From positions 1-37,472 of the forward strand of contig JAFUHX010000052.1 in assembly GCA_017474045.1 (NCBI GenBank): DNA of 37,472 bases, in the 5' to 3' direction. Positions 8,523 to 22,189 of the stretch are shown piece by piece. Under the pieces are notes generated by a model. It worked only from the letters and a program-made list of their open reading frames with translations, had not been told where the DNA came from and ran no database searches. Source of the stretch: Clostridia bacterium (GTDB lineage: Bacteria > Bacillota > Clostridia > Oscillospirales > Acutalibacteraceae). How positions within the stretch are numbered: position 1 is the stretch's first letter; each line of letters begins with the position of its first letter. The position numbers and the translations under genes are program-made.

Positions 8523-8837
8523 TTAGTTACTCTTTAAAAGAGAAGCGATTTTTTTCGCAAAGCCCTCGTCGTCAACTGTTAAAACCGCCGCCTTACTGCC
8601 GACTGCTTTAGACAGACTGAGCATATCTGTTTCTATTTCGATAAAATCAATGGTTTTTCCTTCATAAGAGCAAGCGTGGGAAAATTCATTTTTAAGTCTC
8701 TGAGATGCATCTGAAGCAATTAAACAAAGCTTTGCGCTGTTTTTAACAATTGCGCCGATTGCGGCGTCATGGCCTAAGCTTATTTTTCCGGCTCTTCTGG
8801 CAAGACCCAGAAGAGAAAGAATTTTTTCATTCTTCAC
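8523..8837 (-). CDS. ylxQ: L7Ae-family ribosomal/RNA-binding protein (YlxQ type)
   Basis: 104 aa. Kink-turn RNA-binding fold: LSLLGLARRAGKISLGHDA at the N-terminus, then AKLCLIASDAS, typical of YlxQ/RplGA. The exact RNA target of YlxQ is not settled. The start is GTG (8837), with AGGAG ten bases upstream inside the end of rnpM; the ATG a few bases later is out of frame. It overlaps rnpM by 11 bases and sits in its usual place between rnpM and infB. Confidence 0.88.
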   Translation of the reverse strand: MKNEKILSLLGLARRAGKISLGHDAAIGAIVKNSAKLCLIASDASQRLKNEFSHACSYEGKTIDFIEIETDMLSLSKAVGSKAAVLTVDDEGFAKKIASLLKSN

Positions 8838-9120
8838 CCTGCTTCATCTCCTGACTCATTTTTTCATAAACCTCTTCAGAAATGTTGCAATCAAGAGCTC
8901 TCTCAAAGCGTTTGGCTTTTCTTGCCATGGCAAGACATTTTGAATTTTTGCAAACATAGGCGCCTCTGCCTGCCTTTTTTCCCGTCAGGTCAAGAGAAAT
9001 TTCATAGGTCTCTTCGCCTTCTGAAGCAATTTTTGTTTTAACAACTCTGACAAGCTCTTTTTTGGGAAACATTTGTGAGCAGCCCATACACTTTCTCATG
9101 GGAACCTTTTTTTGTTGCAT
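8827..9120 (-). CDS. rnpM: YlxR/RnpM family RNA-binding protein
   Basis: 97 aa. The family pattern is clear: PMRKCMGCSQMFPKKELVRVV, then GRGAYVCKNSKCLAMARKAKRFERAL. In B. subtilis YlxR has been renamed RnpM because it binds RNase P RNA and modulates its activity; that this homologue does the same is inference. Its cysteines (CMGC and C...C) resemble a degenerate zinc-binding site. It lies between nusA (18-base gap) and ylxQ (11-base overlap), the conserved order. Confidence 0.9.
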   Translation of the reverse strand: MQQKKVPMRKCMGCSQMFPKKELVRVVKTKIASEGEETYEISLDLTGKKAGRGAYVCKNSKCLAMARKAKRFERALDCNISEEVYEKMSQEMKQGEE

Positions 9121-9138: not shown

Positions 9139-10671
9139 TTATGCTTCAGCGTCCTCAGCCTTAATGTCGATTTTCCAGCCGGTCAGTTTGGCTGCAAGAC
9201 GAACATTCTGGCCTTTGTTACCGATTGCAAGTGAAAGCTGATCAGCGGGAACCACAACATAGCAGGTTTTCTTTCCACTTGAAACAGCCTCGCTGTCAAC
9301 TGTTACGCTTGTTACCTTAGCGGGAGCAAGTGCTGCTGCAATATATTCTTCGGGAGCATCGCTGAAACGAACGATATCAATTTTTTCGCCGCAAAGAGTT
9401 TCAATAACGCTGTTGACACGCTGACCTCTGGGTCCGATACAAGCTCCGACGGGATCAACATTTTCAACAGTTGATTTAACAGAAATTTTTGTTCTTGAAC
9501 CGGCTTCTCTTGAGGTTGAAACAATTTCAACTGTTCCGTCTGAAATTTCGGGAACCTCAAGCTCGAAGAGACGTCTTACAAGACCGGCTTCTTTTCTTGA
9601 GATGTTAGCATAGCTTTGCTGACTGTCTTCATTAGTAACAACAGAAACATAAACTTTAATCTGCTGACCGACTTCAAGAACTTCGCCGGGAATCTGGTCG
9701 CCCTTTGCCAAGGTGAAGAAGGATTTTCCGATTTCAATTCTTGCGTCACCTGTTTCGTCGTTGATATACTGAACAACCGCATTAACAACCTCGCGGTCCT
9801 TTTCAAGAACATCTCTCTTGCCCTTTTTCTTTTCTTCTTCGCTGATTGCCTGTCTGATAATGTTTTTAACGCTGAGTGCGAAGAGTCTTCCAAGGTTTTT
9901 GGGCTCGATTTCAATTTCAATGTTTCCGCCCACAAGACCTCCGCCGTAATGCAAGGCCTGAGCTTCTGTTATTTCACATTTAGGATTGGTTACTTCTTCA
10001 ACAATTGACATTCTTCTGAAGATTCTGATGGTTCTCATTTCTGTGTTGATATCACAGAAAATGTTTTCAACCTCCTGAGGCTTCTCCTCTTCGGCTTCTT
10101 CCTTCTCTTCCTCTTCAGGTTCTTCAATTCCGAGAGCTTCTCTTTCAAGCTGAGCTTTTCTCAGTTCAGCTCTTCTCTTTGCCTCAGCCTGTTTTCTGGC
10201 TTCAGCATCAAGTCTTTTAGCTGCCTTGACGATTGATTCTTTAAACTGTTCAAAAATAAAATCAACGGAAATGTCTTTTTCTTTGGCAAGAGTTTCAACT
10301 GCAAAGAAAAACTCCATGTTTTTAACTTCCTTGGCTACCTGCTCTTTTCCGAGAGCGTTGATCATTTTTGTAATTCTTGATGAGTCAATTTCGATATATG
10401 CCCAGCCGCCTTCGATAAACAAGGCTCTTTCTTCTGCGTCTTCTTTTGTTATCTGGGTATAGGGGTCAACAACTTCGTCAACAACAATCATTTTGTTATA
10501 GATAAATGCCTCTTTTGTGGTCAAATCAAGTGTTGAAACGATGCAGTCTCTGTTTGCTCCGGGAAGAAGAGAAACCTTAACCTTATTTGTCATCCATTCA
10601 AGTGCAAGATCAACGCTTGTTGCGTATTTCTTTGAAAAATTATCAAGGTTCTTATATAATTTGTTGCTCAT
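9139..10671 (-). CDS. nusA: Transcription elongation/termination factor NusA with a duplicated N-terminal domain
   Basis: 510 aa, against roughly 350-400 in most Firmicutes. Residues 119-285 are the usual NusA N-terminal domain, beginning MEFFFAVETLAKEKDISVD, but with a charged, probably coiled-coil insert at ~157-200. Residues 292-360 are S1. KH1 (GPRG, 413-416) and KH2 (GNKG, 484-487) follow. Residues 4-116 are extra and read as a second N-terminal domain: VVDEVVDPYTQITKEDA (63-79) parallels IVEEVTNPKCEITEAQA (223-239), SVDLALEWM (19-27) parallels SVDFIFEQF (135-143), and both end GG.x.IEI...  The start ATG has AAAGGA upstream and follows rimP by 23 bases. An internal ATG at 10317 with AAGGA ten bases upstream could yield a 392-residue NusA of ordinary form. 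The domain binds RNA polymerase in the known protein. Confidence 0.95.
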   Translation of the reverse strand: MSNKLYKNLDNFSKKYATSVDLALEWMTNKVKVSLLPGANRDCIVSTLDLTTKEAFIYNKMIVVDEVVDPYTQITKEDAEERALFIEGGWAYIEIDSSRITKMINALGKEQVAKEVKNMEFFFAVETLAKEKDISVDFIFEQFKESIVKAAKRLDAEARKQAEAKRRAELRKAQLEREALGIEEPEEEEKEEAEEEKPQEVENIFCDINTEMRTIRIFRRMSIVEEVTNPKCEITEAQALHYGGGLVGGNIEIEIEPKNLGRLFALSVKNIIRQAISEEEKKKGKRDVLEKDREVVNAVVQYINDETGDARIEIGKSFFTLAKGDQIPGEVLEVGQQIKVYVSVVTNEDSQQSYANISRKEAGLVRRLFELEVPEISDGTVEIVSTSREAGSRTKISVKSTVENVDPVGACIGPRGQRVNSVIETLCGEKIDIVRFSDAPEEYIAAALAPAKVTSVTVDSEAVSSGKKTCYVVVPADQLSLAIGNKGQNVRLAAKLTGWKIDIKAEDAEA

Positions 10672-10694
10672 TTTTTGTTGTTCATCCTTTCTTG

Positions 10695-11162
10695 TTATTG
10701 TTCAAAATCGTCAAGCTTGATCCATGACAATTCTTTTTTATTAAAAGAAACCTCGGTTTCTTCGCTTTTGATTGTTATAACACCGTCTTTATAGCCTTCA
10801 AGAATTCCTTTGAAATCTCTTTGGTTTTCAATCGGTCTGATTGTTTTGATCATTACCTTTTCACCCAGGGATTTTTCAAAATGCTCGTCTCTGACCAACT
10901 CTCTTTCAATTCCGGGTGAGCTAACCTCAAGGCAATAAGCCTGTTCAATGGGGTCTGCCTCGTCAAGAGGCTTGTTGATTGCGTGGGTCATATCAACGCA
11001 GTCATCAATGGAAACTCCGCCTTCTTTGTCAATGAAAATTCTCAGATACCACTGTGAACCCTCTTTAACATAGCGAACGTCCCAGATTTCAAGACCTAAC
11101 TGTTGAGCAATCGGCTCAGCAATTTTTCTCACTGCGTCAACTGTGTTTCCGCCCTTCGCCAT
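10695..11162 (-). CDS. rimP: Ribosome maturation factor RimP
   Basis: 155 aa from ATG 11162, preceded by AAGGAGG at a spacing of eight. The frame stays open 33 codons further upstream, but that stretch runs through the leader hairpin and is not RimP-like. Family motifs are present: GLEIWDVRYVKEG, LRIFIDKEGGVSIDDC, and the highly conserved LEVSSPGIERELVRDEHFEK. RimP is needed for 30S maturation. It is the first gene of the operon, which is its normal place before nusA. Confidence 0.95.
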   Translation of the reverse strand: MAKGGNTVDAVRKIAEPIAQQLGLEIWDVRYVKEGSQWYLRIFIDKEGGVSIDDCVDMTHAINKPLDEADPIEQAYCLEVSSPGIERELVRDEHFEKSLGEKVMIKTIRPIENQRDFKGILEGYKDGVITIKSEETEVSFNKKELSWIKLDDFEQ

Positions 11163-11207
11163 AGGATCATCCTCCTTAAAATATTCAATTGTCGGCTCCG
11201 TAAAGGT

Positions 11208-11251
11208 GAAAAAGCAATAAAGAAGAGCGGACTTTTTGAAAAAGCCCACTC
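11208..11251 (-). terminator. Leader hairpin with T-rich tail before rimP-nusA (probable attenuator)
   Basis: Minus strand 11251-11225 forms a ~12-bp stem (GAGTGGGCTTTT with AAAAGTCCGCTC, including G-U pairs), followed by a T-rich stretch TTCTTTATTGCTTTTT. It lies between the promoter and the rimP start. This has the form of an intrinsic terminator in the 5' leader. In B. subtilis the corresponding leader is known to terminate in a NusA-dependent way as autoregulation; here that is inference. Confidence 0.55.
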
Positions 11252-11272
11252 GCACACTCACGGATTGTTTGT

Positions 11273-12568: not shown

Positions 12569-13642
12569 TCAGATTCTTTCAAGAACTGCCGCTGTCATTT
12601 CTGTTGTTGAAAGAGGCTTTGTGTCGCTGTCTCCAACAAGGTCAGCGGTTCTGAGCCCTGAATCAAGAACAAGGTCAACAGCCTTTTCAATGGCGTCTGC
12701 CTCAGCAGTTAAATCAAAGGAATAGCGAAGCATCATTGCTGCTGAAAGAATAGTCGCAATGGGGTTAGCTTTGTTTTGCCCTGCAATATCGGGAGCTGAA
12801 CCGTGAATAGGCTCATAAAGACCTCTCTTGGTTTCGCCGAGAGAAGCTGAAGCCAACATTCCGATTGAACCGGTGAGCTGAGAAGCCTCGTCTGAAAGAA
12901 TATCGCCAAACATATTTGAAGTTACGGCAACATCAAACTGCTGAGGATTTCTCACAAGCTGCATTGCGGCGTTATCAACCAGCATATCAGTAACGGTAAC
13001 CTCGGGATAATCCTCGGCAACCTCATGAACCACCTTTCGCCAGAGTCTTGAACTTTCAAGAACATTGGCTTTGTCAATGGAAATTACCTTTTTTCCTCTT
13101 TTCATTGCCGTTTCACAAGCAACCTTGGCAATTCTTCTGATTTCTGTTTCGCTGTAGCATTCGGTGTCATAGGCTTCAAGGCCATATTTTCCCTGACGGT
13201 AGCCCCTTTCGCCGAAATAAATTCCACCGGTAAGCTCACGGACAATCATAATATCAAAGCCCTTTGAAACCAGGTCTTCGCGAAGAGGACAGGCCTCTTT
13301 TAAAGCTGAATAAAGCTTTGCGGGGCGAAGATTTGTGAAAAGCTCCATTGCGGCGCGAATTCCCAGAAGAGCCTTTTCAGGACGGATATCACCGGGAAGT
13401 GAATCCCACTTGGGTCCGCCCACAGCACCAAGAAGAACGCTGTCTGATTTCAGGCAGCCTTCAACTGTTTCTTCGGGAAGAGGCTTTCCGACGGCGTCAA
13501 TTGCGCAGCCGCCGATAAGATAAGGTGTAAAATTAAATTTGTGGCCGAATTTTTCGCCGATTTTTTCAAGCACGGAAACAGCGCTGTCAACAATTTCGGG
13601 GCCGATTCCGTCGCCCTTCAAGAGAGCAATATTGAATTCCAT
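12569..13642 (-). CDS. leuB: 3-isopropylmalate dehydrogenase
   Basis: 357 aa. NAD-dependent oxidation and decarboxylation of 3-isopropylmalate to 2-ketoisocaproate, third step of leucine synthesis. Isocitrate/isopropylmalate dehydrogenase motifs: [10 protein letters not shown] at the N-terminus, RPAKLY, the substrate loop [43 protein letters not shown], and [16 protein letters not shown] for the cofactor. Last gene of the operon, 73 bases after leuD; ATG with GGA nine bases upstream. Confidence 0.96.
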
Positions 13643-13715
13643 AGTTATATCCTGTAACCGCCGTTAAAGCGTTTACAAATCCTTTCTTCAGCCTGGCTGA
13701 AAAATCATTTGAATT

Positions 13716-14210
13716 TTATTTGATGATTCCGTTTTTTATTGACTCGACCAAACCGCCGTTTGAAATGATTTCCTGAATAAACATTGGGAAGGGCTCTGTT
13801 TTGAAGCTTTCGCCCGTGGTTTTGTCGGTAATAATTCCGTTATCTAAATCAGCCTCAACCTCATGGCCGTTTTCAATGGCTTCTGCGGCGGCTTCACACT
13901 CAACAATGGCAAGACCGATGTTTATTGAGTTTCTGTAGAAAATTCTTGCGAAGCTTTTAGCAATAACAAGAGAAATTCCGCTTTCTTTAATGGCAATGGG
14001 AGCGTGCTCTCTGGAAGAACCGCAACCGAAGTTAAAGCCGGCAACCATAATGTCGCCCTCTTTAACCTTTTTAACGAAGTCGATATCAATGTCTTCCATG
14101 CAATGAGAGGCAAGTTCCTTTTTATCAATAGTGTTAAGATATCTTGCAGGAATGATAACGTCTGTATCCACATTGTCGCCGTATTTTAAAACAGTACCTG
14201 TAAATTTCAT
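13716..14210 (-). CDS. leuD: 3-isopropylmalate dehydratase small subunit
   Basis: 164 aa from ATG 14210, which overlaps the leuC stop by one base (TGATG) and has AAGGAGG seven bases upstream; the GTG one codon earlier is less likely. Partners with LeuC to isomerise 2- to 3-isopropylmalate. Swivelling-domain motifs: [30 protein letters not shown], and [17 protein letters not shown]. Length is typical of the short archaeal/clostridial LeuD type. Overlap with leuC implies coupled translation and equal amounts of the two subunits. Confidence 0.96.
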
Positions 14211-15472
14211 CACATTACCTCCTTAGGATCGGCTATTCTTCCCATAATTGCGCTGGCAGCAGCAACAGCGGGAGAAGCAAGATAAACCTCTGACTCAACG
14301 TCGCCCATTCTTCCGACGAAGTTTCGGTTGGTTGTTGCAACAGCTCTTTCGCCCTTGGCAAGAATTCCCATATAACCTCCGAGACAAGGTCCGCAGGTGG
14401 GAGTTGAAACAACACAGCCTGCTTCAACAAAGGCTTTTACAAGGCCGTTTTCAACAGCTTTAAGATAAATATCCTGAGTTGCAGGAATAATAATTGCTCT
14501 GACATTTCCGGCAACCTTTTTGCCTTTGATAATTTCGGCAGCTTCTTCAAGGTCTTTATAGTGACCGTTGGTGCAAGAGCCGATTACCACCTGATCAATA
14601 ACGATTTCTTCAATTTCATCGGTGGTGTGAGTATTTTCAGGAAGATGGGGGAAAGCAACGGTTGACTTGATTTCAGAAAGGTCAATTTCAATAACCTCGT
14701 CATAAACAGCGTCTTCGTCTGCCTTGTAAATAACAGCTTCGCGGTCGCTGTGCTCTTTTATGTAGGCAAGAGTCTGCTCATCAACCTCAAAAATTCCGTT
14801 TTTGGCACCGGCTTCAATAGCCATGTTTGCCATGGTGAGTCTGTCGTAAATAGTCAGAGACTTCAGACCCTCACCGCAAAATTCCATTGATTTATAAAGA
14901 GCACCGTCAACGCCGATTTTTCCGATAATATGAAGAATAACGTCTTTTCCGGAAATATATTTGTTAAGCTTGCCCTTAAGAACAAACTTAATTGCTGAAG
15001 GAACCTTGAACCATGCTTTTCCGATTGCCATTCCGCAAGCCATATCTGTTGAGCCAACACCTGTTGAAAAAGCGCCTAAAGCACCGTAGGTGCAGGTATG
15101 TGAATCAGCGCCGATAACAACATCTCCGGCAACAACAAGACCCTTTTCGGGAAGAAGTGCATGTTCAATACCCATTCTGCCAACATCATAGAAATGTGTA
15201 ATTTCTTTTTCATTACAGAAATCACGGCACATTTTGCACTGAACTGCGGCTTTGATGTCTTTATTGGGAGCAAAATGGTCCATTACCATTGTTACTTTCT
15301 CTTTGTCATAAACACCGTCAAAGCCAAATTTGTTAAATTCTCTTATGGCAACGGGTGAAGTGATATCGTTGCCTAAAACTCTGTCAAGATTTACTAAAAT
15401 AAGCTGACCTGCCTCAACCTTTTCAAGTCCTGCGTGGGCAGCGAGTATTTTTTGAGTCATTGTCATTGACAT
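14210..15472 (-). CDS. leuC: 3-isopropylmalate dehydratase large subunit
   Basis: 420 aa. Aconitase-family [4Fe-4S] subunit. Cluster cysteines are in [17 protein letters not shown] and [11 protein letters not shown]; the [22 protein letters not shown] block is conserved. The ATG follows GGGGTGACC; two further in-frame ATGs at codons 3 and 5 are possible starts. It precedes leuD with a one-base overlap and follows ilvD by 13 bases. Confidence 0.96.
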
Positions 15473-15485
15473 TTTTGGTCACCCC

Positions 15486-17150
15486 TTATTTTTTATTGAT
15501 TATTGCTCCTTTGTCTGCAGAAGAAACGCTTTCACTATAGCGCTTGAGATAGCCGCTGATTCCCTCTTTTTTGAGAATGGGCATTTCTTTTTTGCGCTTT
15601 TCGATTTCTTCGTCTGAAACCTTGAGCTCAATTTTATATTCGGGAATATTGATTGAAATAATGTCGCCGTCTTTTACATAAGCGATTAGACCGCCCTTTG
15701 CAGCTTCCGGAGAAACATGGCCTATTGAAGCGCCTCTTGTTGCGCCTGAGAAACGGCCGTCAGTAATAAGAGCAACCTCTTTGTCAAGGCCTGCGCCGGC
15801 AATAGCTGAAGTCGGAGAAAGCATTTCTCTCATTCCGGGACCGCCTGACGGACCCTCATAGCGAATAACAACAACGTCGCCCGCTTTGATTCCGCCCTCA
15901 TAAATAACCTTGATTACTTCTTCTTCGCTGTTGAAAACTCTTGCCGGACCTTCGTGGACAAGCATTTCCGGAGCAACTGCACTGCGCTTGACAACGCAAC
16001 CGTCTTTTGCAAGATTACCTCGGAGAACAGCAATTCCGCCGGTCTGGCTGAACGCTGTTTCTTTTGTTCTGATAACAGCTTCGTCAAGATTTTCAACGCC
16101 TTCAAGATTTTCTTTGAGTGTCTTTCCGCTGCAGGTTAAAACATCGGTTTCAAGAAGACCAAGCTTTTCAAGCTCTTTAAGAACAGCATAAACGCCGCCG
16201 GCTTCGTTAAGGTCTTCCATATATGTGTTTCCTGCAGGGGCAAGGTGGCAAAGATTCGGTGTTCTTTCGCTGATTTCGTTTGCCAGGTCAAGATTAAAAT
16301 CAACACCACATTCATTGGCAATAGCAGGAAGATGAAGCATGCTGTTTGTTGAGCATCCAAGAGCCATATCTGCAGTCAAAGCGTTTCTGAAAGACTTTTC
16401 TGTCATAATGTCAAGGGGCTTAATGTCTTTTTTAACAAGCTCCATAATCTGCATACCGGCGTGCTTTGCAAGCTCAATTCTTGAAGAATAAACAGCGGGA
16501 ACAGTTCCGTTTCCGCGAAGTCCCATTCCGAGAACCTCGGTCAGACAGTTCATTGAGTTTGCGGTGTACATACCTGAGCATGAGCCGCAGGTGGGGCAAG
16601 CCTTCTCTTCAAATTCAAGAAGCTTTTTTGAATCGATTTTTCCCGCTGCATAAGAGCCTACAGCCTCAAACATACTTGAAAGGCTTGTCTTTTTTCCGCC
16701 GACGCGACCGGCGAGCATTGGACCACCGGAAACAAAAATCGTCGGAATATTAAGTCTTGCGGCAGCCATGAGAAGACCGGGAACGTTTTTGTCGCAGTTG
16801 GGAACCATAACAAGTCCGTCAAAGCCATGAGCCAGAACCATTGCCTCGGTTGAGTCAGCAATAAGGTCACGGGTTACAAGGGAATATTTCATTCCCTTGT
16901 GACCCATAGCAATTCCGTCGCAAACTGCAATAGCAGGAAAAACAATCGGTGTTCCGCCCGCCATGGCAACGCCCATTTTAACCGCCTGAGTAATTTTATC
17001 AAGATTCATGTGGCCGGGAACAATTTCGTTATAGGAAGAAACAATTCCGATAAGAGGTCTTGATGTTTCTTCCTCTGTCAGTCCCAGAGCATGATAAAGT
17101 GAACGGTGAGGTGCATTATTAAAACCGTCAACGATTGTGTCTTTAATCAT
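15486..17150 (-). CDS. ilvD: Dihydroxyacid dehydratase
   Basis: 554 aa from ATG 17150. Earlier in-frame starts exist, but AAAGGTG stands nine bases before this ATG, and the family begins near here with [14 protein letters not shown]. Dehydrates dihydroxy acids to the keto acid precursors of valine, isoleucine and leucine. Iron-sulphur ligands are visible in [12 protein letters not shown] and [35 protein letters not shown] and [15 protein letters not shown] are also conserved. Sits between ilvC and leuC. Confidence 0.96.
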
Positions 17151-17207
17151 AAGATTCATCACCTTTTGCTTTTTTAAAGCTGAAAAATTCAAAATGAAAA
17201 TATAAGC

Positions 17208-18233
<1,026 letters not shown>

Positions 18234-18289
18234 TTACTCCTTTTATAAAAAATGATATTTATTTTATAACCGCTGAATTTCAGTAGCTA

Positions 18290-18787
18290 TTATTTACCTA
18301 AAATGCTGCCTTCGCCTCTTTCCAATGCAACAATTCCCGTCCGGCACATTTCAATGATTCCATAGGGCTTGAGAACATCAATAAAGGCGTTGATTTTTGA
18401 AGGTTCGCCGGTTATTTCAACGCAAATTGCATTAACGGAATAGTCAACGATTTTTGAGCCGAAAATCTGAATTGCCGAAAGAACCTCTTGTCTGTTTTTA
18501 AGTTCATTTTTGATTTTGATAAGCAACAGCTCTCTTGTTAAAGAGTTTTCATCAAGATATTCAACCTTTTTAACGCTATGAATCTTTCTGAGCTGATTTA
18601 TCATCTGCTCTCTTGCGTAGCCGTCACCACTCATAGAAATGGTTATTCTTGAATATTCGGGATGCTCGGTTTCACCAACGGTGAGAGCGTCTATATTGAA
18701 GCCTCGGCGGGTAAACATACTGGTTACTCTCGTCAGAACGCCGAATTTGTTTTCAACATAAACCGCAATAACAAATTTATTGTTCAT
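18290..18787 (-). CDS. ilvN: Acetolactate synthase small (regulatory) subunit
   Basis: 165 aa. N-terminal ACT domain (VENKFGVLTRVTSMFTRRGFNIDALTVG) followed by the conserved C-terminal half (IFGSKIVDYSVNAICVEITGEPSKI...). Binds the catalytic subunit and confers valine feedback inhibition in known systems. Begins three bases after ilvB, with its ribosome site AAAGGAG inside the end of ilvB. Confidence 0.95.
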   Translation of the reverse strand: MNNKFVIAVYVENKFGVLTRVTSMFTRRGFNIDALTVGETEHPEYSRITISMSGDGYAREQMINQLRKIHSVKKVEYLDENSLTRELLLIKIKNELKNRQEVLSAIQIFGSKIVDYSVNAICVEITGEPSKINAFIDVLKPYGIIEMCRTGIVALERGEGSILGK

Positions 18788-18790
18788 CGC

Positions 18791-20488
18791 TTACTCTCCT
18801 TTCTCGGTGATAATGTCATCCATACTGCCGCCGGGAGGAAGCATTGGAAGAACGAATTCATCGCAATCAATAGCGCAATCGATAAGAACCGGACCGTCGG
18901 TTGCGTTAGCTTCTTTAAAAGCCGCCTCAAACTCTTCGGCTGTTGTTGTTCTTATTCCCTTAAGACCGAAAGCGTCGGCAAGCTTGACAAAATCGGTTTT
19001 TCTTTCAAGAGTCGTGTTGGAATAATGGCGCTGATAGAAAAGCGTTTGCCATTGTCTTACCATTCCCAGAACGCCGTTATTGAAAATAACAATTGTTACG
19101 GGAAGGTTATAGGAAACAACTGTTGCCAGCTCGTTCAGATTCATTCCGAAGCTTCCGTCGCCGGTTATTAAAACAGTTCTTTTCTTTGTTGCGGTTGCAC
19201 CGCCTATAGCGGCTCCCATTCCGTAACCCATGGTTCCCAGACCGCCGCTGGAAGAGAAGGTTCTTGCTTTTTCAAATCTGCAAAACTGGGCTGCCCACAT
19301 CTGATGCTGACCAACATCGGTTGCAACAACGGTTTCAGATGCTTTGTTTTCGTTGATTATGTCAATAATCTGTTTCGGTGTGGGAACACCGCCCTTGCCC
19401 ATGTCTTTATATCTGTCTTGCGCCTTGCGCTCATGAGCAAGCTCGTCATTTTTATATTGATTGATCATCTGCATCCATTCGGGACGCTTTTTAGCTCTCA
19501 CCTTGTCGGCAATTCGCTTGAAGGCATCGGCAACGTCAGCAATTATTCCAACGTCAACACCAATGTTTTTGTTAATTTCAGCAAAGTCAACATCTATCTG
19601 AATAATTTTTGCTCCGCGGGCATATTTCTTTTTATTTCCCGTAGCTCTGTCGCTGAAACGGACGCCGACGGCAAAAATCAGGTCAGCGTTATTCTGAGCA
19701 ACAGAGGAAGCATAGTGACCGTGCATACCCTGCATTCCGAGGAAACGATCGCAATCTGTGGGAATAGCAGAAATACCCATAAGGCTACAACCTATTACAC
19801 CGTCGATTTTTTCAGCCAATTTTATAACATCATCATAAATCCCCGTTCCGATAACGCCGCCGCCTACATAAATATAAGGCTTTCGGCAGGAATCAATAAG
19901 CTCAGCCGCCTTTTCAATCTGTTCTTCTTCGGCATTGGGAATTTCAAAAAGAGGAAGAACCTCTTTGTTTTCAAACTCGCATTTTGCTGCCTGAACATCC
20001 TTGGGTACGTCCACAAGAACGGGACCCGGTCTTCCTGACCTTGCAATCTGAAACGCCTCTCTGATTGTGTCGGCAAGGTCTTCAACTCTGCTGACAAAAT
20101 AGTTATGCTTTGTTATTGGAAGTGTTACGCCTGTAATGTCAATTTCCTGGAAGCTGTCTCTTCCGATAAGGTCACAGGAAACGTTGCCCGTTATGGCAAC
20201 CATTGCAACGCTGTCAAGCATTGCCGTAGCAATTCCGGTAACAAGATTTGTTGCGCCCGGGCCTGAGGTTGCAATGCAAACTCCGGTTTTTCCCGTTGCG
20301 CGAAAATATCCGTCAGCTGCGTGGGCTGCCGCCTGCTCATGCGCAGTGAGAGTGTGGTGAATTCTGTCTCGGTTTATATAAAGCTCATCATATATGTTGA
20401 GAACCTGACCGCCGGGATAACCGAAAACATCAGTAACGCCCTGCTCAATAAGAGTTTCGATTATAATTTGTGCTCCCGATAATTTCAT
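18791..20488 (-). CDS. ilvB: Acetolactate synthase large (catalytic) subunit
   Basis: 565 aa. Thiamine-diphosphate enzyme that makes acetolactate from pyruvate. The ThDP glutamate region is LTAHEQAAAHAADGYFRATGKTG; the ThDP motif begins at GDGSFGMNLNEL and ends in NNGVLGMVRQWQ. The FAD-binding middle domain and TSGPGATNLVTG are typical. ATG has AAAGGAAAGG upstream. It follows leuA after 42 bases; a possible extra promoter overlaps the leuA end. The long plus-strand frame opposite (19304-20038) is a shadow. Confidence 0.96.
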   Translation of the reverse strand: MKLSGAQIIIETLIEQGVTDVFGYPGGQVLNIYDELYINRDRIHHTLTAHEQAAAHAADGYFRATGKTGVCIATSGPGATNLVTGIATAMLDSVAMVAITGNVSCDLIGRDSFQEIDITGVTLPITKHNYFVSRVEDLADTIREAFQIARSGRPGPVLVDVPKDVQAAKCEFENKEVLPLFEIPNAEEEQIEKAAELIDSCRKPYIYVGGGVIGTGIYDDVIKLAEKIDGVIGCSLMGISAIPTDCDRFLGMQGMHGHYASSVAQNNADLIFAVGVRFSDRATGNKKKYARGAKIIQIDVDFAEINKNIGVDVGIIADVADAFKRIADKVRAKKRPEWMQMINQYKNDELAHERKAQDRYKDMGKGGVPTPKQIIDIINENKASETVVATDVGQHQMWAAQFCRFEKARTFSSSGGLGTMGYGMGAAIGGATATKKRTVLITGDGSFGMNLNELATVVSYNLPVTIVIFNNGVLGMVRQWQTLFYQRHYSNTTLERKTDFVKLADAFGLKGIRTTTAEEFEAAFKEANATDGPVLIDCAIDCDEFVLPMLPPGGSMDDIITEKGE

Positions 20489-20529
20489 CTTTTCGCCTTT
20501 CCTTTCTTTAAAAATGAATATTATTTTTT

Positions 20530-20559
20530 ATTATACCATACGGTTGATAGCGCTGACAA
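20530..20559 (-). promoter_or_regulatory. Possible internal promoter ahead of ilvB
   Basis: Minus strand TTGTCA (20559-20554), 18 bases, TATAAT (20535-20530) with an extended TGG before the -10. It overlaps the final codons and stop of leuA. If active it would let ilvBNCD be transcribed independently of the leucine T-box. A match within coding sequence can be chance. Confidence 0.35.
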
Positions 20560-22189
20560 GAGCTTTAACGGAAGAAACGATAATATCGCTGTCTATTCCC
20601 ACGCCCCAGGTTACTTTTCCGTTTTCTTCCTTCAGTCCAACATAAGAAGCTGCCTGAGATTTTGAGCTGACCTCAAGAGCGTGCTCTGTGTAGGTTTCAA
20701 GAACATATTGGTGGTGAGTTACCTTTGCAAGAGCATCAACAACGCTGTCAAGACGGCCGTTACCTTTTCCGATAACTTCAAATTCTTCGCCGTTCCATTC
20801 ACCGGAAACAAAGGCTTTGATGTAGCCGTTTTTCTGAACATAGTGGAACTCGGTCAATTTAAGATTGTTTTCAACATTAACATAGTCGTTGATAAGGATT
20901 TCATAAACCTCCTGGGGAAGAAGCTCTTTGTGGGCATGGTCTGAAATACTCTTGACATGATAGCCGAAATCTTCGCGCATTTTCTGAGGAAGAACAAAGG
21001 AGAACTGGGTTTCAAGAAGATAGCCGATTCCGCCCTTTCCTGACTGAGAGTTGATTCTGATAACGTCAGCTTCATACTGTCTTCCCACGTCGGTGGGATC
21101 AATGGGAAGATAGGGAACAGTCCAATGCTCTGTTTCTTTTTCTTCTCTCCATTTCATACCCTTGGCAATAGCGTCCTGATGTGAACCGCTGAAGGCGGCA
21201 AAAACAAGCTTTCCGCTATAGGGCTGACGTTCATAAACATGCATTCTTGTAACCTTTTCATAAATCTCGCAGATTTCGGGAAGATTTGTGAAATCAAGTT
21301 CGGGGTCAACGCCCTGAGAAAACATATTAAGCGCAAGGGTAACAATATCAACATTACCGGTTCTTTCGCCGTTTCCGAAAAGAGTTCCTTCAATTCTGTC
21401 TGCTCCGGCAAGAAGACCCATTTCGCTGTCGGCAACAGCACAGCCTCTGTCGTTATGAGGATGAAGCGAAACAATAAGATTTTCTCTTCTGTTCATGTTC
21501 TTGCACATATATTCAACCTGATTTGCATAGACGTGAGGCATTGAATGAGAAACAGTAACGGGCAGGTTGATTATCACCTTGTCTTCTGCAGTAGGCTGCC
21601 AGATATCAATAACTGCGTTGCAGATTTCTGCAGCGAATTCAGGCTCAGTTCCTGTAAAGCTTTCAGGTGAATATTCAAAATGGAAGTTTCCGGGAGTTTT
21701 TTCTCTGTATTCCTTGCAAAGCTTGGCGCCGAAAACAGCAAGGTCAACAATCTGTTTTTTGTCTTTTTTGAAAACCTGCTCTCTCTGAGAAACAGAGGTT
21801 GAATTATAAAGATGAACAATTGCGCTGTGGCAACCTCTGAGAGCTTCAAAGGTTTTTGCAATAATATGCTCTCTTGATTGAGTAAGAACCTGAATTGTAA
21901 CGTCTTCCGGAATAAGATTTCTTTCAATCAGAGCGCGGCAGAATTCATATTCTGTTTCTGAAGCGGCAGGAAAGCCGACTTCGATTTCTTTGAAACCGAC
22001 CTTAACGAGAAAAGTGAAAAACTCCAGCTTTTCTTCAAGGCTCATGGGAATAATTAAAGACTGGTTTCCGTCTCTTAAGTCAACGCTGCACCAGATGGGA
22101 GCTTTGTCGATATAGGTTTTGTGTCTCCAATCCATGTCAACGCCTTTGGCTTCAAAAAATTGTCTTGTATATTTTTCATAACCTTTCAT
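20531..22189 (-). CDS. leuA: 2-isopropylmalate synthase (long, LeuA2-like form)
   Basis: 552 aa. Condenses 2-ketoisovalerate with acetyl-CoA, the committed step of leucine synthesis. Metal/active-site motif DLRDGNQSL at 38-46 and HPHNDRGCAVADSE; a C-terminal ~130-residue allosteric domain for leucine inhibition ends in KALVSAINRM. The opening (KYTRQFF..., then IDKAPIWCSVDLRDGNQ) matches the longer LeuA class rather than the ~500-residue one. ATG has GGAGG eight bases upstream. First gene of the operon behind a T-box leader. Confidence 0.96.
   Translation of the reverse strand: MKGYEKYTRQFFEAKGVDMDWRHKTYIDKAPIWCSVDLRDGNQSLIIPMSLEEKLEFFTFLVKVGFKEIEVGFPAASETEYEFCRALIERNLIPEDVTIQVLTQSREHIIAKTFEALRGCHSAIVHLYNSTSVSQREQVFKKDKKQIVDLAVFGAKLCKEYREKTPGNFHFEYSPESFTGTEPEFAAEICNAVIDIWQPTAEDKVIINLPVTVSHSMPHVYANQVEYMCKNMNRRENLIVSLHPHNDRGCAVADSEMGLLAGADRIEGTLFGNGERTGNVDIVTLALNMFSQGVDPELDFTNLPEICEIYEKVTRMHVYERQPYSGKLVFAAFSGSHQDAIAKGMKWREEKETEHWTVPYLPIDPTDVGRQYEADVIRINSQSGKGGIGYLLETQFSFVLPQKMREDFGYHVKSISDHAHKELLPQEVYEILINDYVNVENNLKLTEFHYVQKNGYIKAFVSGEWNGEEFEVIGKGNGRLDSVVDALAKVTHHQYVLETYTEHALEVSSKSQAASYVGLKEENGKVTWGVGIDSDIIVSSVKALVSAINRMV

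Follow-up and report, generated by a model that had tools for sequence, protein, structure and literature searches.

Background

NusA is a transcription factor of most bacteria, with an N-terminal domain (NTD) commonly regarded as its one anchor on the polymerase. In Bacillota the gene usually stands in the order rimP-nusA-ylxR-ylxQ-infB-rbfA. For Escherichia coli NusA, the available text of PMC4642336 describes an NTD that anchors the protein on the beta flap tip of RNA polymerase and is joined to S1-KH-KH by helix alpha4; the NTD residues affected by polymerase were L27, L31, I43 and V45, located in and around alpha2 and beta1. Another face of the E. coli NTD is bound by phage N, according to the accessible part of PMC4499122, so the binding partners of an NTD are not limited to the flap.

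A nusA gene encoding two NTDs in tandem was found in the stretch of DNA analysed here (37,472 nucleotides, referred to as the window). Its product shares an NTD (NTD2), S1, KH1, KH2 and the operon place with the Bacillus subtilis-type NusA of Bacillota, and differs from it in having two NTDs instead of one and a charged insert of 43 residues in the second. E. coli NusA is likewise enlarged by a repeated domain pair, AR1/AR2, one of which provides a second polymerase contact (PMC4642336, available text). The E. coli repeats are C-terminal, whereas the window protein repeats the NTD itself and ends after KH2. No description of a doubled or second NusA NTD, or of a NusA-RimP fusion, was found in the literature searched, most subscription papers being outside its scope. 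The preliminary description of this DNA knew of no described NusA of such form; this agrees with the literature searched, but the form is not unique, since tandem NTDs were located in another genus (g50, the genus of genome G064) and in genome G501. NusA is a known factor, and the doubled NTD gives it a new architecture that has recurred.

Domain organization of the window NusA

The features of the locus are collected in Table 1. Translation of the open reading frame gave the 510-residue product reported in the preliminary description, and the sequence motifs quoted there were all located in the protein.

Table 1. Coordinates of nusA, its domains and adjoining features in the window.
Feature	Position	Strand	Basis or remarks
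nusA, NTD1-NTD2-S1-KH1-KH2	9139..10671	minus	ORF and translation, 510 aa, ATG start
NTD1, extra diverged NusA N-terminal domain, residues 1-118	10318..10671	minus	Pfam, own profile, AF2
NTD2, orthologous NusA NTD with linker helix alpha4 to S1, residues 119-282	9826..10317	minus	NusA_N, tree
NTD2 charged insert, residues 157-199, between alpha2 and beta1	10075..10203	minus	alignment with 17 NusA
S1, about residues 290-362	9586..9804	minus	placed between NTD2 and KH1; TIGR01953 span
KH1 (KH_5), residues 390-457	9301..9504	minus	PF13184, 88.8 bits
KH2, residues 470-507	9151..9264	minus	PF00013, 26.2 bits
Shine-Dalgarno of nusA, GAAAGG, ahead of NTD1	10686..10691	minus	similar leader before congeners' single NTD
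rimP, just before nusA	10695..11261	minus	PF02576, PF17384
ylxR/rnpM, after nusA	8827..9120	minus	NF047356, 109.9 bits, cut-off 80

The protein was matched by TIGR01953 (NusA) over residues 197-507 with 288.9 bits, above the curated cut-off of 253.4, and by the Pfam models NusA_N, KH_5 and KH_1 in that order. The Pfam match of the S1 region itself was weak (E 3.7), S1 being seen through the longer TIGR01953 model. A search of the window's own genome (G000) with the window NusA returned a single match, the protein itself, which was therefore taken as a working NusA; the operon neighbours rimP, ylxR and infB were present, as expected for NusA. A single NTD is usual though outside the curated definition, so the protein with two copies was classed as a NusA variant and not as a non-member. 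The chain stops 3 residues past KH2, and the C-terminal acidic repeats are thus absent.

Assignment of the upstream domain

Residues 1-118 (NTD1), searched alone against Pfam, matched NusA_N (PF08529) over profile positions 38-81 with 20.7 bits (E 5e-4). The curated cut-off is 23.8, and NTD1 was accordingly named a diverged homologue and not a Pfam-level member. A further profile was built from the native NTDs of relatives, utilizing 70 of 84 sequences; the 14 omitted were the window, tandem, insert-bearing or very diverged. Residues 3-117, i.e. the whole of NTD1, scored 30.8 bits against this profile; 7000 shuffles of NTD1 reached 12.7 bits at most. A phmmer search of NTD1 against the PDB gave no significant match; the top row, at E 0.3, was NusA.

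NTD1 was then used as the query against 34 genomes of the genus. Matches at E<=1 were obtained in 26/34, G000 included. The native NusA NTD was matched in 22/33 congeners with E values of 2.6e-5 to 0.02; the match lay elsewhere in 3/33 and none was obtained in 8/33.

An AF2 model of NTD1 (pLDDT 88.4), for which the input alignment contained NusA NTDs, had the NusA-NTD layout, and its top structural rows were NusA. NTD1 keeps the head motif VVDEVVDP..I...DA and the predicted alpha/beta layout. The alpha4 linker motif, FGRIAAQTAKQV in its kin, reads ITKMINALGKEQV in NTD1, i.e. the conserved motif is lost. Flap-contact positions are not safely readable in NTD1 because alpha2 can be aligned in alternative registers. 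Taken together, the assignment of residues 1-118 as a second, diverged copy of the NusA NTD is supported. The resemblance proposed earlier for the upstream stretch was borne out by the profile score relative to the shuffles and by the predicted fold, the structure prediction suggested at that time having given the NusA-NTD layout. The profile search suggested for each half was clear for NTD2 (68.1 bits when excised alone) and divided for NTD1, which fell short of the Pfam cut-off yet was recognised by the relatives' profile.

Start site and integrity of the gene

The ATG at 10671 has a Shine-Dalgarno energy of -10.1 kcal. The ATG of residue 119 has -5.8 kcal; of 2000 positions drawn at random within the gene, 19% reach that value. 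These energies are noisy, as seen from the GTG of residue 247, an internal codon that scores -10.4. Residue 119 had been taken as the ordinary NusA start; this stands by homology only, its ATG having a poor Shine-Dalgarno match. Two isoforms are probably not made by an internal start at residue 119, since the noisy Shine-Dalgarno comparison gave no support for one.

The leader before ATG 10671, GAAAGGATGAACAACAAAAAATG, is near-identical to that of the single-NTD nusA of some congeners, e.g. GAAAGGATGAACAGAAAAAATG. With a native-like nusA leader before it, NTD1 occupies the starting place of the ancestral NTD. NTD1 and NTD2 are about 22% identical over 108 aligned residues in a simple global alignment that the insert distorts in part. 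A duplication introduced by assembly, a possibility named in the preliminary description, appears unlikely given this low identity, the one open frame and the native-like leader.

NTD2 and NTD elaborations within the genus

NusA_N matched residues 120-282 over profile positions 1-119, and helix alpha4, which links the domain to S1, is retained in NTD2. The alignment with 17 other NusA sequences gave the length of the charged insert, estimated earlier at about 45 residues, as 43 (residues 157-199); NTD1 is without it, as had also been reported. The insert adjoins the positions of the E. coli polymerase-responsive residues, so NTD2 might be the altered copy.

In a survey of 34 genomes of the genus, NusA_N was matched in 32/34, the exceptions being G007 and G015. 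A single whole NusA_N match (positions 1-119) was present in nusA of 28 congeners, and the others were the window, G008, G020 and G048. The open frames of single-NTD NusA in the genus were 349-404 aa among the matches listed. A doubled NTD was present in the window's genome only (1/34 genomes, two of them without a NusA_N match). The survey of relatives proposed earlier therefore placed the doubling in one genome of the genus, and tandem NTDs were found in other groups, as set out below. One congener, G003, carries two different nusA genes (G003:C66 and G003:C108), possibly a paralog or a mixed assembly.

At the alpha2-beta1 point a plain congener has a span of 7 residues; the window has 48, G008 and G020 have 72 each and G048 has 191. 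The insert follows AAKRQDAEARK in G048 and AAKRLDAEARK in window NTD2, which is the same point. NusA of the sister species G048 (L171, 55-1710, minus strand, open frame 559) has a long charged insert in a single NTD. NusA of G008 and G020 contains the RimP C-terminal SH3 domain (PF17384) inside the NTD, between alpha2 and beta1, scoring 46.0 and 48.2 bits respectively with a cut-off of 26.3. The inserted SH3 was 35% identical to that of the genome's own RimP in G008 (score 139, best of 1000 shuffles 51) and 39% identical in G020 (score 143, best of 1000 shuffles 46). These nusA genes lie at 1207-2448 of L002 (G020) and 1180-2421 of L003 (G008), with a separate rimP just upstream in both. The window insert was rejected as a RimP remnant: its local score was 28, and shuffling the real RimP inserts 1000 times gave best scores of 43-51.

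A tree of 86 NTD rows placed window NTD2 and G048 as sisters (100/100), G008 and G020 next (97/87) and plain G044 next (100/99). Every NTD elaboration seen in the genus thus falls in one clade. G008 and G020 resemble the window in belonging to this clade and in having their insert at the same alpha2-beta1 point; they differ in that a foreign domain lies within a single NTD, whereas the window NTD is doubled. The RimP domain within the NTD of these congeners suggests that NusA is connected with ribosome maturation.

Tandem NTDs beyond the genus

The order survey comprised 394 genomes at E<=0.1. Match positions were inspected in 40 genomes with at least two NusA_N matches, chosen by eye, and in two low scorers. 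True tandems were the window, G064, G128 and G181. In g50 tandem NTDs were found in 6/10 species (G064, G128, G181, G804, G805 and G806, all with the architecture NTD-NTD-S1-KH-KH) and a single NTD in 4/10. The class survey of 391 genomes at E<=1e-4 gave two matches, by eye, in four: G064, G128, G501 and G787. G501, of the same class but another order and the one genome representing its genus, carries a tandem within a single frame of 494 residues, its copies scoring 69.9 and 142.4 bits. Two matches were obtained, again by eye, in two of the 398 genomes of the phylum survey, G064 and G956, those of G956 lying on two contigs. The class and phylum surveys are blind to a copy as diverged as window NTD1, the window itself counting as one match, and the order, class and phylum samples overlap; the tandem counts are lower bounds. 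No second NTD was seen in the first 100 residues of 31 NusA loci from named genomes (six short peptide patterns).

Several candidates were rejected as tandems. The matches in G787 and G263 lie at contig ends and were read as cut genes, and those in G196 and G956 lie on separate contigs. Two matches each in G093, G278, G249 and G347 correspond to one NTD with an acidic insert. These four (L175-L178), together with G210 (L179), belong to another family of the order and carry acidic inserts in the beta part of a single NTD.

The downstream NTD outscored the upstream one in all tandems: 84.9-97.7 vs 43.4-57.0 bits in the six g50 species, 142.4 vs 69.9 in G501 and 63.3 vs 19.9 in the window. The alpha4 motif is absent from the upstream copy in the window, G128, G064 and G501 (the four shown). 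The tandem NusA of g50 and G501 is therefore like that of the window in its NTD-NTD-S1-KH-KH order and more diverged upstream copy; unlike it, these proteins arose by separate duplications and have copies that are more alike (30-48% identity vs 22%).

Phylogeny and selection

Nine sequences in which a script found no end motif and five with inserts (L140, L175-L178) were left out of the 86-row tree, and L001 and L172-L174 were entered as cut copies. A 57-row set was prepared by removing 29 rows. In the 86-row tree the g50 upstream (N1) and downstream (N2) copies formed sister clades within g50, the joining fork having 90/81, and the two G501 copies paired with 100/79. Constraining the tested g50 and G501 copies to one clade was rejected (p-AU 0.002), so the g50 and G501 duplications are independent.

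The placement of window NTD1 was unstable: it fell outside the genus near another family, on a branch of 3.66, with 86 rows and with the genus (100/99) with 57 rows. A sister position to NTD2 was not rejected (p-AU 0.257). As NTD1 was not seen in G048, G008, G020 or plain congeners, the simplest reading is that the duplication in the window's line was a separate event. Tandem NTDs seem to be rare, with at least three separate origins.

For five close g50 species, sum dN/sum dS was 0.058 for N1, 0.094 for N2 and 0.008 for S1-KH (215 codons). The N1 value indicates that the extra NTD is constrained there, under purifying selection. By analogy with this separate duplication, which is not proof, window NTD1 may likewise be maintained by selection.

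The beta flap tip

Twenty-eight genomes were queried for rpoB. G020 gave no match, and G022 (partial) and G134 were left out, giving a set of 25 RpoB. The beta flap-tip core EERLLRAIFGEK was identical in 23/25, among them the RpoB of the window, of G048 and G008 and of plain congeners; the other two, from the tandem g50 species G064 and G805, have V in place of I. Apart from this change, co-variation of the tip core with NTD number was absent from the 25 RpoB. The residue just ahead of the motif T[AP]EERLLRA was M in G000 (L218) and G008 (L226), Q in G048 (L233) and L in the other 22/25. The M/Q-for-L change goes with the elaborated clade, and some co-change at the flap may have occurred.

A single rpoB match was obtained in G000. 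With one rpoB match and an unchanged tip core, no second flap tip is available for a second NTD. Since G000 has no second flap tip, re-purposing of one copy would be likelier than two polymerase contacts.

Proposed role of the doubled NTD

On balance it is probable, as judged from sequence comparison, that NTD2 is still the polymerase anchor and that NTD1 has been retained as an additional contact module with a new purpose. The gene would have arisen in the window's species when the nusA NTD was duplicated in tandem and in frame, alpha4 of NTD1 then running directly into alpha1 of NTD2. NTD2 would stay anchored on the beta flap tip. NTD1, released from its linker role, would project from this anchor as an extra protein-contact module and could contact a further partner close to the RNA exit, most likely the elongation complex at a different surface, or else a neighbouring factor or ribosome. 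This contact might thereby tune pausing, termination or coupling. NTD2 is preferred as the anchor because of the higher downstream scores, the upstream loss of alpha4, the grouping of NTD2 with the NTD of congeners and the unchanged flap-tip core. The very long branch of NTD1 and its sub-cut-off Pfam score count against the proposal.

Reversed roles, with insert-free NTD1 as the flap anchor and NTD2 with its insert as a spacer or RNA/protein-binding linker, are considered unlikely. The insert between alpha2 and beta1 of NTD2 does adjoin the flap contacts given for E. coli in the available text of PMC4642336, and NTD1 has no insert there and a body predicted to be intact. However, the only NTD of G048, G008 and G020 bears an insert at the same point, which shows that an insert there is compatible with a serving NTD, and NTD2 far outscores NTD1 and keeps the linker helix.

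It is also doubtful that the protein takes two grips on polymerase, simultaneous or alternating. NTD1 would then sit on a second site, with beta prime, alpha-CTD and the opposite flank of the exit channel as candidates, or compete with NTD2 for the one flap tip and act as a regulatory lid. Both copies have the NTD layout, and the additional face with which the E. coli NTD binds phage N (PMC4499122, accessible part) would allow a further contact. Moreover, the window NusA ends after KH2 without acidic repeats, and AR2 bound to alpha-CTD is a second contact of the E. coli protein in the available text of PMC4642336. Against this, the one rpoB match in G000 and the unchanged core offer no second flap tip. 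The listed single-NTD NusA of the genus, at 349-404 aa, is also too short for two acidic repeats, so the absence of repeats calls for no second NTD.

That NTD1 is a neutral, decaying by-product of duplication is rather improbable. Its very long branch, its lost alpha4 motif and the failure to see NTD1 in the 31 other genus genomes with a NusA_N match would fit decay, but 118 residues are still open and foldable at about 22% identity, and the parallel case in g50 is under purifying selection. An unrelated N-terminal extension is very improbable, as the sub-cut-off Pfam score and non-significant phmmer search are outweighed by the whole-length profile score, far above that of any of the 7000 shuffles, and by the predicted NusA-NTD fold, though its modelling alignment held NusA NTDs.

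For the preferred reading, a re-purposed NTD1 beside an anchoring NTD2, the wider meaning is that at least three origins and a constrained extra copy in one lineage suggest that the polymerase anchor can be copied and re-purposed. Tandem-NTD NusA also provides natural material for asking which NTD surface does what. More speculatively, and with little probability attached, the NusA NTD in the window's clade could be an evolvable docking platform on transcribing polymerase: duplicated in the window, insert-filled in G048 and fused to RimP SH3 in G008 and G020. If so, the doubled NTD would be one of several physical ties linking polymerase with the assembly of ribosomes or with the leading ribosome.

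Neighbouring genes

The gene order around nusA was DUF815 AAA ATPase, rimP, nusA, ylxR/rnpM, ylxQ, infB and rbfA. The rimP start is probably ATG 11162, behind AAGGAGG (Shine-Dalgarno -13.0 kcal), and not GTG 11261 of the longest ORF. At 348-2096, on the minus strand, lies a 582-residue ORF whose sole Pfam match, to the C-terminus of an antiporter, is marginal at 24.2 bits (cut-off 23.7). Leucine/isoleucine synthesis genes were identified with Pfam upstream of the nusA operon at 12569-22189 on the minus strand, namely isopropylmalate dehydrogenase, aconitase-family, dihydroxy-acid dehydratase and isopropylmalate synthase genes.
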